From Salinirubellus salinus (GTDB taxonomy: Archaea > Halobacteriota > Halobacteria > Halobacteriales > Haloarculaceae), in contig NZ_CP104003.1 in assembly GCF_025231485.1 (NCBI RefSeq), positions 3,100,001-3,164,000 on the forward strand: a DNA stretch of 64,000 nt. The letters are read 5' to 3'. The position numbers and the translations under genes were made by a program. Below the pieces are notes generated by a model, which was given only the letters and a program-made list of their open reading frames with translations, did no database searches and was not told the DNA's origin. Positions 41,237-45,154 of the stretch are shown here, piece by piece (position 1 is the first letter of the stretch; each line of letters starts with the position of its first letter).

Positions 41237-41506
41237 GACTGTGTCGGTGGGGGGTGAGTCGTGGTCTCTGTGTCGGTGAGCGGGAACGCTAGCGCGGTCC
41301 AACTGAATCGCCCCGCACCGCCGTCGCGCCGGCCACCGCTGTCGCGGTGACACGGCGTATCCTGCCGTCCCCCGAGCTCGGGCACGCCGCCCGATGGCCG
41401 GCGGCCCTCACTGGCCGTGTCTCTCGCTCGATCGACCGAATCACCACGGGCCGCGACCTCGGCCCGACCGAGAAAGCGCTATCCGCGTCGGTCCCGAACG
41501 ATGACC

Positions 41507-41707
41507 ATGGCGAAGGAACCGTGTGAGGGCTGTGGCCAGTCCGTCCGCATCGCGGGCGGCATCGCCAACCTCTGGTCGTTCGAGGGCGACCGGACCGAGG
41601 GGTTGACGCTCGAACTCTCGGACGGCTCGGAGTTCTTCCTGTGTTACGACTGCATCGAGCAACTGCCCGACGACCCGAGCGAGGCGGACGTGGCGGCGCT
41701 GGAGTGA
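41507..41707 (+). CDS. Small two-CxxC zinc-binding protein
   Basis: 66 aa. C-E-G-C near the start and C-Y-D-C at 47-50 form one four-cysteine zinc site. The rest is a small beta-rich domain: V-R-I-A-G-G-I-A-N-L-W-S-F and L-T-L-E-L-S-D-G-S-E-F-F-L. It resembles a haloarchaeal DUF family I remember as DUF7561, which is not certain. I start at the ATG at 41507; another ATG six bases upstream is also possible. Function unknown. Confidence 0.78.
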   Translation: MAKEPCEGCGQSVRIAGGIANLWSFEGDRTEGLTLELSDGSEFFLCYDCIEQLPDDPSEADVAALE

Positions 41708-41722
41708 CGGCACACGCGCCGC

Positions 41723-42175
41723 TCAGGAACAGGTCAGTTCGACGGGCCGACTCGCGTTCTCCACTCGGACCCCGGTCCCGACGGCGTCCACCGTGACCGT
41801 CACCGACTCCGTCGCGTTCGAGTCACACGCCAGGTCCGCCGAGACGGGACCGCCCTCCCCCGGCTCGAGCGACAAGACGACCGAGACGTTCGTCACGTTC
41901 GGTCCGCCGTCCGGGTCGGTCTCGAACACCTCGGCCGTCAGGTCGACCCGTTGGTTCAGCCGGTTTGTGACGGTCAACAGGTCCGCCCGCGTGCCGTTCT
42001 CGGGTACCGTCGCGTCCAGCGAGTCGGTCAGACCGAGGAAGGCGTCCTCCGGCGGCGCGACGGCCACCGAGACCCCGCGCTCGGCCGTGGCGCTCGAGAA
42101 CGCCCCCGTCCCGCCCGCCCCGGTCGTGACCACGCCGACCACCGCGAGCACGAGGAGCCAGTGGCGGAGCGCCAC
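41723..42175 (-). CDS. Secreted short-leader protein (TasA/camelysin-like N-terminus)
   Basis: 150 aa with a GTG start. The leader is hydrophobic (L-L-V-L-A-V-V-G-V-V-T-T-G-A-G-G-T-G-A-F-S-S), a T-G-A-F-S-S junction like that in TasA/camelysin and haloarchaeal DUF1102 proteins, which are cut by SipW-type signal peptidase. The remaining 120 residues are an all-beta domain with V-T-N-R-L-N-Q-R-V-D-L-T-A-E-V-F-E-T, and end in a Cys. Its stop is 15 bases from the zinc protein. It follows the DUF7344-type gene by three bases and shares its operon. Confidence 0.76.
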   Translation of the reverse strand: MALRHWLLVLAVVGVVTTGAGGTGAFSSATAERGVSVAVAPPEDAFLGLTDSLDATVPENGTRADLLTVTNRLNQRVDLTAEVFETDPDGGPNVTNVSVVLSLEPGEGGPVSADLACDSNATESVTVTVDAVGTGVRVENASRPVELTCS

Positions 42176-42178
42176 GAC

Positions 42179-42775
42179 TCACTCACCCGGAAGCCGGCCC
42201 GAGAGCGTCTCGTCGTCTACCAGTCGCCCCCGGTAGGTGTACCAGAGGTGTGCCAGCGCGGAGGCGACGAGCGTCGCGACGACGAACACCAGCCACCCCT
42301 CGCTCGGCACGAGCGAGAGCCCCGGCGCCTCCAGCAGGACCCCGCCGAGCAACGCCGCGTGCAGTCCCCCGAGCCCCACGTAGTACACCGCCCACGGCAC
42401 GTCCGGGCCGGGGACGACGTCGAGGTAGACGTTCAGGTCCCGTGCGTCCTCGGTGAGCGTCGCCTCCTTGCGCAGGCTGTCGAACTCGACGAACCCGCAG
42501 TCGTCCATCTTCGGCAGGTGGAACTGGTTCAGCGCGGTCGAGACGCGGTTGCGCTCGTCGCTCGTCAGCTCCCGTGCCGGCTTGCCGTACTCGCAGGCGG
42601 CGACGTGGTCGACCAGTTCGCGCAACGAGACGGCGTCCTCCGGTCGTTCGTCGAGGTAGCGGTAGGCGTACCGCCGGCGCTCGTTGCTGAGCACGTCGAA
42701 CACGTCGTCCTCGTGGAGCTCGGTCTCGATCTCCGACTCGTGCTGTCCCTCTCCGTTTCGTGCCGCCGTTCCCAT
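42179..42775 (-). CDS. DUF7344-type winged-helix membrane protein
   Basis: 198 aa. The cytoplasmic N-terminal domain (residues 20-125) is a winged helix: D-V-F-D-V-L-S-N-E-R-R-R-Y-A-Y-R-Y-L, then V-S-L-R-E-L-V-D-H-V-A and R-N-R-V-S-T-A-L-N-Q-F-H-L-P-K-M. This is the DUF7344 pattern as I know it. Two membrane helices follow at about 140-160 and 165-185. Start ATG at 42773-42775. It may be the sensor/regulator of the secretion module, as its gene is divergent from the DUF1102 gene. Three bases separate it from the secreted protein. Confidence 0.83.
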   Translation of the reverse strand: MGTAARNGEGQHESEIETELHEDDVFDVLSNERRRYAYRYLDERPEDAVSLRELVDHVAACEYGKPARELTSDERNRVSTALNQFHLPKMDDCGFVEFDSLRKEATLTEDARDLNVYLDVVPGPDVPWAVYYVGLGGLHAALLGGVLLEAPGLSLVPSEGWLVFVVATLVASALAHLWYTYRGRLVDDETLSGRLPGE

Positions 42776-43170
42776 CCTTGACTCCCCTCCTTCGCCTGAA
42801 GTGGTGTGCGGGTGGGGGGTACAAAGGTAGCCACCGATGAATGTCGTCTCTGTAGACATCATTCGTGTCGGTACGGTCGTCGGTCGAACCAAACTCGGTG
42901 GGTGCGTAACGAATAGCCGAATCGCCTGCAGGCGCGGGATTCCGGTTCCGGTTCTATCCACGTGTTAATCAGTTACTCGCTCGCCCAAGGCCGGCTATTG
43001 AGCGGCCGAGGGTCGCTCTTGAGCGTGGCAGGCGGCCTGTTGAGCGGTGGAGGGCTGGTTTGGATTCTCGGAGGCGCTCTATTCTGAGGGGGGTGGCCGG
43101 TGTGTCCTTGGATGCGTGCTGACGGACACCACGCGTGTCCGGGGGTGCGCCCGAAAGAGGTACTACGACA
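42776..43170. promoter_or_regulatory. Intergenic region between divergent secretion genes, with 21-bp repeats
   Basis: 395 bases with no supported gene. It holds a possible bulged inverted repeat at about 42838-42864 (GAATGTC then GACATCATTC), and a run of 21-bp direct repeats (listed separately). The last 20 bases before the DUF1102 ATG contain AGAGG (43156-43160), a candidate ribosome-binding site, unusual here because most genes look leaderless. Probably contains two divergent promoters. Confidence 0.55.
42998..43060. repeat. Three 21-bp direct repeats (TTGAGCG units)
   Basis: Units start at 42998, 43019 and 43040, each TTGAGCG with AGG at unit positions 12-14. A fourth, weaker unit (42977-42997) keeps C6, G7, AGG at 12-14 and T20. 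The 21-bp period is two helical turns, so a protein could bind the same face of each. They lie 110-173 bases upstream of the DUF1102 start. A minus-strand reading gives a low-complexity Pro-rich frame that I consider accidental. Confidence 0.65.
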
Positions 43171-43791
43171 ATGCAACGACGCAAATTCTTGGTCGGAGCA
43201 GGATCGCTCGCAGCTGGCGCCAGTGCCGTGATAGGTACCGGTGCAGTCTCGCAGTTCAGTTCGGGGGACCGTGCAGTGAACATCGACAAGACTGGAGACG
43301 CGAGCGCGTACATCGCGCTCCAGCGCAACGGCGGCTCGGATGGTCTCGATGGGACGGACGACGGGACTCGTCACGGAAACTTCGTCGAGTACACTGGCTC
43401 ACCGGAACAGCTCGAAATCGACTTCTCGGGGGATAACCCGACCAGTTCACGCTCTGGTGACCCCACACAGGGTAACTCGCTCGGGGGGCAGGGTGTGAAC
43501 CCGAACTCGACGTACTACTTCGACGAGGTGTTCGACATACTCAATCTGGCGAACAATACCGGCTCTGGTGTCGGTGAGATGGACGTCTGGATCCAAGAGA
43601 GCATCCCTGGGGTGACGTTCTACACGGGGACGGAGAACGGTGGAACCTCACTCATCAACAGTAACAACAAGAAGCAACTCAGCCCGGGGCAGCCTGCGAA
43701 GGTGGGAGTGAAAATCGTCGCCGCCGACCTTCCCAGTGCCAACGTCGACGGGACGATGGTGGTACACGCCGAGTCTCGGAACCCCGATTAG
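43171..43791 (+). CDS. DUF1102 domain secreted protein
   Basis: 206 aa. Leader M-Q-R-R-K-F-L-V-G-A-G-S-L-A-A-G-A-S-A-V-I-G-T-G-A-V has the twin-arginine and the Ala/Gly-rich core of DUF1102 proteins. The mature part starts S-Q-F-S-S-G-D-R-A-V-N-I-D, and is an all-beta domain poor in charged residues, with N-N-T-G-S-G-V-G-E-M-D-V-W-I-Q-E. Base composition is somewhat lower in GC than its surroundings. The next gene is a signal peptidase. It is a likely cell-surface structural protein. Confidence 0.85.
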   Translation: MQRRKFLVGAGSLAAGASAVIGTGAVSQFSSGDRAVNIDKTGDASAYIALQRNGGSDGLDGTDDGTRHGNFVEYTGSPEQLEIDFSGDNPTSSRSGDPTQGNSLGGQGVNPNSTYYFDEVFDILNLANNTGSGVGEMDVWIQESIPGVTFYTGTENGGTSLINSNNKKQLSPGQPAKVGVKIVAADLPSANVDGTMVVHAESRNPD

Positions 43792-43957
43792 TCGGAGGGT
43801 TCGATCTCCCCGTTTCGGTTTCGGGAGTACACGAGAAGAGACCAAAGCGGCTGGTCCATGCCGGAAGCCGCTGGAACCGGGCACGGCACAGGAGTGTCGG
43901 GCCAAGCGACCGGAGTGGGCCAGCGGTAGAGAACGAACGAGCGTCGAAACCGATTGT

Positions 43958-45154
43958 ATGAATCGAAGGAGAGGACCTGCGAGGGTAGCCCTCCTCGTGC
44001 TCGTATCCGTCGCCCTGAGTATCGTCGCCGGGGCCGTCCTCGGACAGCCAACCGTCCTTGGCTTCGTCGAGACCGGCAGCATGGCACCCACCCTCGACCC
44101 GGGCGATGGGTTCGTAGCCGTGCCGAGTGACCTCACCGAAATCGAGGAGGGTGACGTGATCACCTTCCACGCAGAGGAGATACAGGGTGGTGGCCTCACC
44201 ACCCACCGGGTCGTCGGCGAGACCGACCGTGGGTACGTCACCCGTGGAGATGCAAACCCCTTCACCGACCAGCAGGGCGGTGAGCCTCCCGTGCGGCGCG
44301 AGCAGGTGGTCGCAGAGGCCCTCCAGGTCGGCGGAAGCGTCGTCGTAGTGCCCCATCTCGGCACCGCCGTCGAGGGGGTGCAAGGGGCTCTCGGGGCTGT
44401 CCAGCGAGGTGCCGTCGGACTGTTCGGTACCCGTGCACTGCTCGGCCCACAGTGGCTCGGCTACCTGTTCTTCGGCGCGACACTCGTCTACTACCTCCTC
44501 GGGGAGTACCGCGACCGGAACGAGCGGGGGAGCCGCGAACGCTCGCGGGGCCGGGATACCGGTATTGACCCCCGAGTGCTGCTCCTGGGGTTCGCCCTGG
44601 TTCTGGCCGCAGCAGCGACCGCGGCGATGGCTGGACCGGCAGGCCCCAAGGAGTTCGGCGTCGTCAGCGCCGAGTTCGATTCGGAGCGACCGGACGTCAT
44701 CAGGGCTGGCGGGTCGAGCGACCTGCCATACCAGGTGCCGAACAGCGGGGTGGTGCCGACCGTCGTCTTCCTCGAACCCCGCGAGGGGGTACGTGTCGAA
44801 CCGACCGAGATTGTGCTCGGCCCACACCAGGTCACCGAGGTAACCATCACCCTCTCGGCCCCACTCGAGACCGGCTACTACCGCCGGTACGTCGTCGAGC
44901 ACCGCTACCTTGCGGTGTTGCCGGTCCCGATCATCCGCTCGCTCCACGCGGTCCACCCGTGGCTGCCCGTGGTCGTCATCGACGCGCTGATAGCGGGTGG
45001 GTTCCTCGCGGTGACACTCCCGCTAATCGGGCGTGGGCGGGTGCGTTCACGCGACCGTGAGCGACCCGGCCGGGGGTGGTCGGCCGACTCCGCCGTCGGC
45101 TCGGCGGCTGAACCGGGCACGGGTTCGAGCCCTCGAGTAGAGCGGTGGGTTTAG
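43958..45154 (+). CDS. Signal peptidase I (SipW-like) with extracellular domain extension
   Basis: 398 aa, more than the common 200-300. The catalytic core is S41 in T-G-S-M-A-P-T-L, H83 in T-H-R-V-V and D104 in N-P-F-T-D, the Ser-His-Asp set of archaeal/ER-type enzymes instead of bacterial Ser-Lys. Membrane helices are at about 10-29, 165-182, 207-225 and 335-357. The loop 230-330 is a beta-sandwich-like domain (P-T-V-V-F-L-E-P-R-E-G-V-R-V, then V-T-E-V-T-I-T-L). It probably processes the DUF1102 protein upstream. Confidence 0.88.
   Translation: MNRRRGPARVALLVLVSVALSIVAGAVLGQPTVLGFVETGSMAPTLDPGDGFVAVPSDLTEIEEGDVITFHAEEIQGGGLTTHRVVGETDRGYVTRGDANPFTDQQGGEPPVRREQVVAEALQVGGSVVVVPHLGTAVEGVQGALGAVQRGAVGLFGTRALLGPQWLGYLFFGATLVYYLLGEYRDRNERGSRERSRGRDTGIDPRVLLLGFALVLAAAATAAMAGPAGPKEFGVVSAEFDSERPDVIRAGGSSDLPYQVPNSGVVPTVVFLEPREGVRVEPTEIVLGPHQVTEVTITLSAPLETGYYRRYVVEHRYLAVLPVPIIRSLHAVHPWLPVVVIDALIAGGFLAVTLPLIGRGRVRSRDRERPGRGWSADSAVGSAAEPGTGSSPRVERWV

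Follow-up and report, generated by a model that had tools for sequence, protein, structure and literature searches.

The subject of this study is a four-gene locus at positions 41723-45154 of the window, by which we mean the whole 64-kb stretch analysed, namely positions 3,100,001-3,164,000 of Salinirubellus salinus NZ_CP104003.1. As judged from sequence comparisons, the locus is a shortened form of a fimbria-type cluster that is conserved in haloarchaea and related to the Tat-fimbriae (tafi; Tat, twin-arginine translocation) and to the fibres of the TasA and bundling-pili kind. We lean towards the interpretation that it is a minimal haloarchaeal fimbria cluster in which a dedicated signal peptidase cuts the leaders of two secreted proteins, and in which the outer domain of this peptidase most likely holds the subunits and passes them to the fibre. 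The locus consists of the following elements.

41723..42175, minus strand: TafC-like secreted protein P0002, 150 amino acids (aa); partial match to NCBIfam TafC, profile-profile comparison, pilin 9p0a.
42179..42775, minus strand: DUF7344 winged-helix protein P0003, 198 aa, with two C-terminal membrane spans; Pfam, hydrophobic spans.
42776..43170, no strand: divergent control region, 395 bp; sequence and repeats, putative function.
43171..43791, plus strand: DUF1102 fibre-subunit-like secreted protein P0001, 206 aa; Pfam, 9p0a match, AlphaFold2 (AF2) model.
43958..45154, plus strand: endoplasmic reticulum (ER)/archaeal-type signal peptidase I P0004, 398 aa, with a predicted PapD-like/ASH-like extracellular domain; TIGR02228, SEC11A alignment, AF2 model.
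44048..44356, plus strand: catalytic core of the peptidase, residues 31-133 (S41, H83, D98, D104); alignments, AF2 model.
44633..44926, plus strand: predicted extracellular beta-sandwich of the peptidase, residues 226-323, strands 229-318; predicted local distance difference test (pLDDT), structural neighbours, Cep192_D3.

A sequence-only reading of this DNA had described four genes around a 395-bp control region, namely a GTG-started secreted protein with a T-G-A-F-S-S junction, a DUF7344-type winged-helix protein with two membrane spans, a DUF1102 secreted protein and a 398-aa signal peptidase with a Ser-His-Asp core. This description was borne out. Each gene lies where it had been placed, the gap between the divergent starts is exactly 42776-43170, the secreted protein at 41723-42175 on the minus strand starts with GTG and contains GGTGAFSS, and the family assignments agree with the scores given below. 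The two minus-strand genes, DUF7344 followed by the TafC-like gene, are separated by 3 bp and look co-transcribed.

The dedication of the long peptidase to fibre proteins, which had been proposed together with co-occurrence in relatives as a check, is well supported. In 58 related genomes, 49 full-length long peptidases were found in 37 genomes, and the 68 other signal peptidases of the same genomes served as the comparison set. A TafE-family gene lies within 10 kb of 41 of the 49 long peptidases versus 1 of the 68 others, and a DUF5305 gene lies within the same distance of 40/49 versus 1/68; several of the long peptidases without such neighbours sit on short contigs. This association is far above chance. 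When partial matches are counted at the genome level, the long peptidase and the TafE family occur together in 35 genomes (38 and 36 for each alone), and the long peptidase and DUF5305 occur together in 37 (38 and 38). The corresponding Fisher values are 3e-11 for the TafE family and 4e-13 for DUF5305, and they overstate independence because the species are related.

The arrangement of the genes is conserved as well. We surveyed 84 loci, comprising 80 named haloarchaeal loci and the four of the Salinirubellus salinus genome; DUF5305 is present in 79, a DUF1102/TafE-like gene in 75 and DUF7344 in 68, normally in the same orientation. With C for TafC-like, W for DUF7344, E for DUF1102/TafE-like, S for the long peptidase, D for DUF5305, < for the minus strand and > for the plus strand, the exact order C< W< E>(1 to 5) S> D> is found in 15/27 loci when one locus per genus is taken, and close variants are found in most of the others. 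The arrangement recurs in most of the 80 named haloarchaeal loci, and the window copy is its minimal form, C< W< E> S>, without D. This arrangement is beyond chance. Furthermore, five genomes from other orders of the same phylum (L150-L154) carry E E E S together with DUF5305, their peptidases have the outer domain, and a recognisable TafC-like gene is present in four of them and a DUF7344 gene in three; the module, outer domain included, thus extends to further classes of the phylum. The DUF7344-like gene of some of these modules has one hydrophobic span, not two. A copy on the Natrialba magadii plasmid pNMAG01 (L158) is annotated just as 'signal peptidase I' and 'DUF5305', and a long peptidase of this kind, again with DUF5305, was observed on the Haloarcula sinaiiensis plasmid pHsi55 (L157). 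These plasmid-borne copies suggest that the modules may move between haloarchaea.

The formation of a fibre by the two secreted proteins is likely. P0001 matches Pfam DUF1102 (PF06510) over residues 80-201 with 31.3 bits, above the gathering cut-off of 22.2, and the DUF1102 family profile matches the solved pilin 9p0a with an E-value of 4.5e-28. The TafC-like family profile matches the same pilin in the leader region (E 3e-10). The TafC-like and DUF1102 families align with an hhalign probability of 99.1, and the correspondence is clearest in the leader and first strand; on these profile comparisons, the families of the two secreted proteins are relatives. An Asp_Glu_race match of P0002 (E 0.078) and an FaeE chaperone match of the DUF1102 profile (E 0.29) were dismissed as chance. 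In the AF2 model of P0001, a sandwich is predicted at 110-205, and the N-terminus is unpaired and of low confidence. The top structural match of this model is the Pyrobaculum calidifontis bundling pilin 7ueg, a modest match (Z 8.0, root mean square deviation 6.7, 124 aligned residues, 14% identity) that is tied with MSP/ASH domains, and the type 1 pilins FimA/FimG come after these; 7pnb is also among the matches. P0002 is a probable minor fibre subunit, as its family relationships suggest.

The leaders of these proteins carry a common mark. The leader of P0001, MQRRKFLVG, has a twin-arginine motif ahead of the hydrophobic core and a GTGAVSQFSS junction, which suggests that P0001 is probably exported via Tat. 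P0002 starts with MALRHW, without RR, and its short leader ends in GGTGAFSSATAERGVSV. Among the 226 subunit-type genes of haloarchaeal loci with a recognisable leader, 198 have RR before the leader core and 144 have the junction pattern G..A[FLVMIY], in which A-F is the commonest. TasA has a phenylalanine at P2', and such a hydrophobic or aromatic residue lies right after the site that is cut by the dedicated ER-type peptidase SipW (PMC10269814). By analogy, the haloarchaeal junction, with its putative cut site next to the A of GTGA, recalls TasA and would be the expected mark of one specialised peptidase.

We consider it very likely that P0004 is the enzyme that cuts these leaders. It matches TIGR02228 with 62.7 bits, above the curated cut-off of 51.85 (65 bits in the genome search), and with 38.2 bits it lies below the cut-off of 190 of the Bacillus SipW model NF046067. 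The catalytic residues are intact: S41, H83, D98 and D104 align to S56, H96, D116 and D122 of the human enzyme SEC11A, and none of the four varies among the aligned relatives. The AF2 model, built with 63 sequences, has a mean pLDDT of 84.3 and four membrane helices (5-28, 165-188, 205-225 and 336-357). The N- and C-terminus are basic and the core and the extra domain are acidic, which fits a topology with both termini inside and the core and the domain outside. The best structural match of the core is SipA (4n31, Z 10.9).

The extra domain had been described from the sequence as a beta-sandwich-like region of about 100 residues between additional membrane helices, with structure prediction of the 230-330 loop proposed as a check on its folding. 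The AF2 model agrees: residues 226-335 lie between the helices 205-225 and 336-357, and a folded domain of eight strands is predicted in 229-318 at a pLDDT of 95-98. When signal peptidases are removed from the top 50 Foldseek matches, nearly all that remain are MSP, ASH (CEP192, OCRL, HYDIN) or pilus-chaperone domains, with E-values of 8e-4 to 2e-2. The VIA Z scores are about 7-8 for axonemal ASH domains, MSP, Caf1M, YadV, PapD and FimC; CupB2 is likewise among the structural neighbours, with Caf1M, FimC and PapD. In sequence comparisons, Pfam Cep192_D3 matches 6 of 24 relatives (best E 4.2e-6), other relatives match HYDIN Ig (immunoglobulin), DUF1573 and FixG_C, and a sequence search of the PDB with the outer domain alone returned weak and scattered matches only. 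A PapD-like/ASH-like sandwich is, in our opinion, the best reading of the predicted fold, and it is not proven. The sequence-only reading had suggested that the extra domain could grip or assemble the secreted proteins as a processing-and-assembly factor; the pilus chaperones among its neighbours, and the likeness of the secreted partner to donor-strand pilins, lend this suggestion indirect support.

The end of this domain bears on its function. The structural alignments extend no further than residue 92 of FimC and residue 104 of Caf1M, positions that we take to precede the donor strand G1. Past residue 318, the chain runs into a short helix and then into the membrane, and the sequences of distant relatives end likewise. 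The outer domain thus appears to end ahead of the final (G) strand, which would leave its edge strand 306-318 free; this last strand is also the most conserved long strand of the domain. Such a free edge would suit an acceptor of a new N-terminus better than a PapD-like donor.

These results can be joined in the following mechanism. P0001, probably exported via Tat, and P0002 would be the fibre subunits, and their leaders would end in the common G-T-G-A-[FVL]-S junction. The long peptidase would remove the leader and thereby free the N-terminal donor strand in the immediate vicinity of the peptidase's outer domain, which may hold the newly cut subunit through strand pairing with the free edge strand 306-318 and hand it to the growing fibre. 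DUF5305, perhaps supplied from other loci, would join it in the membrane as a second partner, and regulation would fall to the DUF7344 protein. Within this scheme, the part of the outer domain in assembly is the more tentative element, and we put it at slightly less than an even chance.

Several results weigh against this interpretation. P0001 matches NCBIfam TafE (NF052522) with 37.8 bits over residues 1-65 only, below the cut-off of 155, and P0002 matches NCBIfam TafC (NF052521) with 48.5 bits over residues 15-149, below the cut-off of 410; the two proteins are therefore relatives of the Taf families and not members. The AF2 model of P0001 is weak over its first 60 residues (pLDDT 35-62). 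The Foldseek E-values, which begin at about 1e-3, and VIA Z scores of about 7-8 may reflect a mere common arrangement of strands, and the sequence profile of the outer domain also touches other Ig-like families, so the label 'PapD-like' depends on structure. The absence of the G strand is read from alignment end points and presumed strand positions, not from superposed coordinates. Finally, the window copy has no DUF5305 gene, but three DUF5305 genes are found elsewhere in the genome.

A more specific version of the mechanism is a fused peptidase-chaperone, in which a PapD-like sandwich without its last strand catches the donor strand just as the leader is cut off and delivers it to the fibre; such a fusion would stand in for the separate chaperone of chaperone-usher pili and for TapA of Bacillus, and would be conserved from Halobacteria to further classes of the phylum. 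We regard this version as less likely than not. PapD and FimC chaperones have two Ig-like domains, and a single sandwich (229-318) is predicted between the membrane helices of P0004. The predicted PapD-like fold of the outer domain and the resemblance of the subunit to FimA/FimG recall the chaperone-usher pili (PapD, FimC, Caf1M); however, the peptidase domain is single and not double, tethered to the membrane, fused to a peptidase and apparently without a donor G strand, and the archaeal system has no usher and no outer membrane.

It is also possible, at perhaps one chance in a few, that the peptidase is dedicated and that its outer domain merely positions the core or docks the substrate, as an exosite or spacer without a part in assembly. 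Membrane helices of the enzyme itself tether the domain on either side, folds of the PapD/ASH/MSP type have many roles, and the evidence for dedication fits equally. However, other signal peptidases need no such domain, the Bacillus SipW model having just 189 positions, and the full-length relatives keep it across classes. We hold it to be doubtful that the outer domain is instead an anchor or terminator into which the donor strand of the last subunit is plugged, so that the fibre is held on the membrane and assembly is spontaneous. An Ig-like sandwich without its last strand would be an acceptor rather than a donor, and for thread filaments an assembly that may need no machinery has been proposed (PMC9715654). 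In the gene cluster of the thread filament, no chaperone or usher could be definitively assigned (PMC9715654). DUF5305, whose own ectodomain lies between two membrane spans, would be an equally good anchor.

The absence of DUF5305 from the window copy raises a further alternative, namely that this copy, having lost DUF5305, is a remnant in decay and has ceased to make fibres. DUF5305 is present in 79/84 loci, and at the window locus a Rad3-like helicase gene already begins 24 bp past the peptidase stop. However, none of the four reading frames is broken, the peptidase retains its catalytic residues, two Haloarchaeobius loci (L051, L060) are likewise without a nearby DUF5305, and the genome has its three DUF5305 genes at other loci. 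Decay is therefore improbable in our view, and the window copy may borrow DUF5305 from those loci or may be a reduced version. Those loci are three further modules at C1:583-591 kb, 1634-1639 kb and 1297-1301 kb, each with DUF5305, and the four modules of the genome each carry their own long peptidase. In each of these four peptidases, a segment separates the last two membrane spans; in the one at 1300 kb, this segment has diverged beyond the profile. The weakest alternative, that P0004 is a general signal peptidase in an incidental neighbourhood, is very improbable: its ER-type active site is complete and the housekeeping enzyme of the genome is merely inferred (a 28-bit match, C1:2629424), but most genomes, including those without the long form, have other signal peptidases, the long form hardly occurs outside fibre loci, and each of the genome's four modules has a long peptidase of its own.

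Two observations on other loci may be added. At L008 4784-8095 (C1 about 584.8-588.1 kb), a 758-aa protein combines a TafE-like N-terminal domain (90.5 bits) with a NosD-like beta-helix, and the neighbouring protein is TafF-like (66.5 bits) and has a run of Gly as well as a stretch rich in Pro and Thr; from their sequences, both look like fibre-tip or surface adhesins. At L009 7673-9124, a DUF5305 protein has an odd C-terminal addition after its second membrane span, a helix-hairpin-helix (HHH_5, E 3.2e-9).

The DUF7344 protein (Pfam, 92.7 bits versus a cut-off of 27.8; hydrophobic spans 130-148 and 153-171) is a probable membrane-bound regulator of the locus, and its constant place beside the divergent region suggests such control. 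In the window, the divergent region contains two imperfect palindromes of the form GACA[TC]-N5-GTGTC, namely GACAT-N5-GTGTC and GACAC-N5-GTGTC, at 42855-42869 and 43125-43139; they lie about 80 bp and about 30 bp upstream of the two divergent starts, one per gene. Among divergent regions between DUF7344 and DUF1102/TafE-like genes, drawn from L043-L122 (e.g., L107, L111, L119 and L073), the inverted repeat TTCAG-N7-CTGAA with at most one mismatch occurs in 25 of 63 versus 1.4 in control stretches, at a spacing of 7 and at no other; related Halorubrum species account for many of these loci. This repeat is absent from the divergent region of the window. The perfect palindrome TTCAGGCCTGAA, a k-mer suggestion, was unsupported as such, and the real pattern is TTCAG-N7-CTGAA. 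On the other side of the locus, window 41501-41707 holds the gene of a small protein with two CxxC pairs (DUF7561, 121.7 bits), convergent with the TafC-like gene.

Among known systems, the Tat-fimbriae, published by Galeva et al. (2025, iScience 28:111793, as cited in PMC12687288) and represented by the NCBIfam models NF052520-NF052523 (TafA, TafC, TafE and TafF), are among the closest. Clusters whose genes exceed the Taf cut-offs (L123-L126) have the same long peptidase and a DUF7344 gene, and mostly DUF5305; of L123-L125, two (L124 and L125) have all three. The RR leaders, the common junction, the partial TafC- and TafE-like matches, the DUF7344 gene and the long signal peptidase are alike; unlike tafi, the window locus has no TafA or TafF and no DUF5305 beside the peptidase, its scores are far under the Taf cut-offs and its order is rearranged. 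No TafA over the cut-off was found anywhere in the Salinirubellus salinus genome. The TasA-TapA-SipW system of Bacillus subtilis likewise has a dedicated ER-type signal peptidase beside donor-strand fibre subunits and a hydrophobic or aromatic residue directly after the cleavage site (PMC10269814). SipW trims TasA and TapA, and TapA acts as a chaperone that starts the fibre by strand donation (PMC9674648, PMC10151520). In contrast, the 189-position SipW model leaves no space for an outer domain, P0004 scores under the SipW cut-off, and the chaperone role belongs to a separate protein, TapA (PMC10151520). The likeness to the Pyrobaculum calidifontis bundling pili (7ueg) is seen in the subunit structure: they are the top structural match of the DUF1102 model, with 14% identity to the DUF1102 protein. 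SipA of Streptococcus pyogenes (4n31) is a signal-peptidase homologue that is essential for pilus polymerisation (core Z 10.9); however, it serves another pilus type, and the match covers the peptidase core only and is a family-wide resemblance.

The module is therefore a known kind of system, a relative of the Tat-fimbriae. This kinship goes beyond the sequence-only reading, as does the DUF5305 membrane protein, which is a regular partner that is missing from the window copy. The part that could be new is the chaperone-like domain conserved in the peptidase. Our interpretation ties DUF1102, DUF5305 and a subfamily of DUF7344 to one system and gives a putative role to the C-terminal half of proteins that databases label just 'signal peptidase I'. 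If it is true, a chaperone-like domain has been built into a dedicated signal peptidase and conserved alongside the fibre genes across classes of the phylum, cutting and assembly would be a single step, and the outer domain may be the missing assembly factor of archaeal donor-strand fibres.

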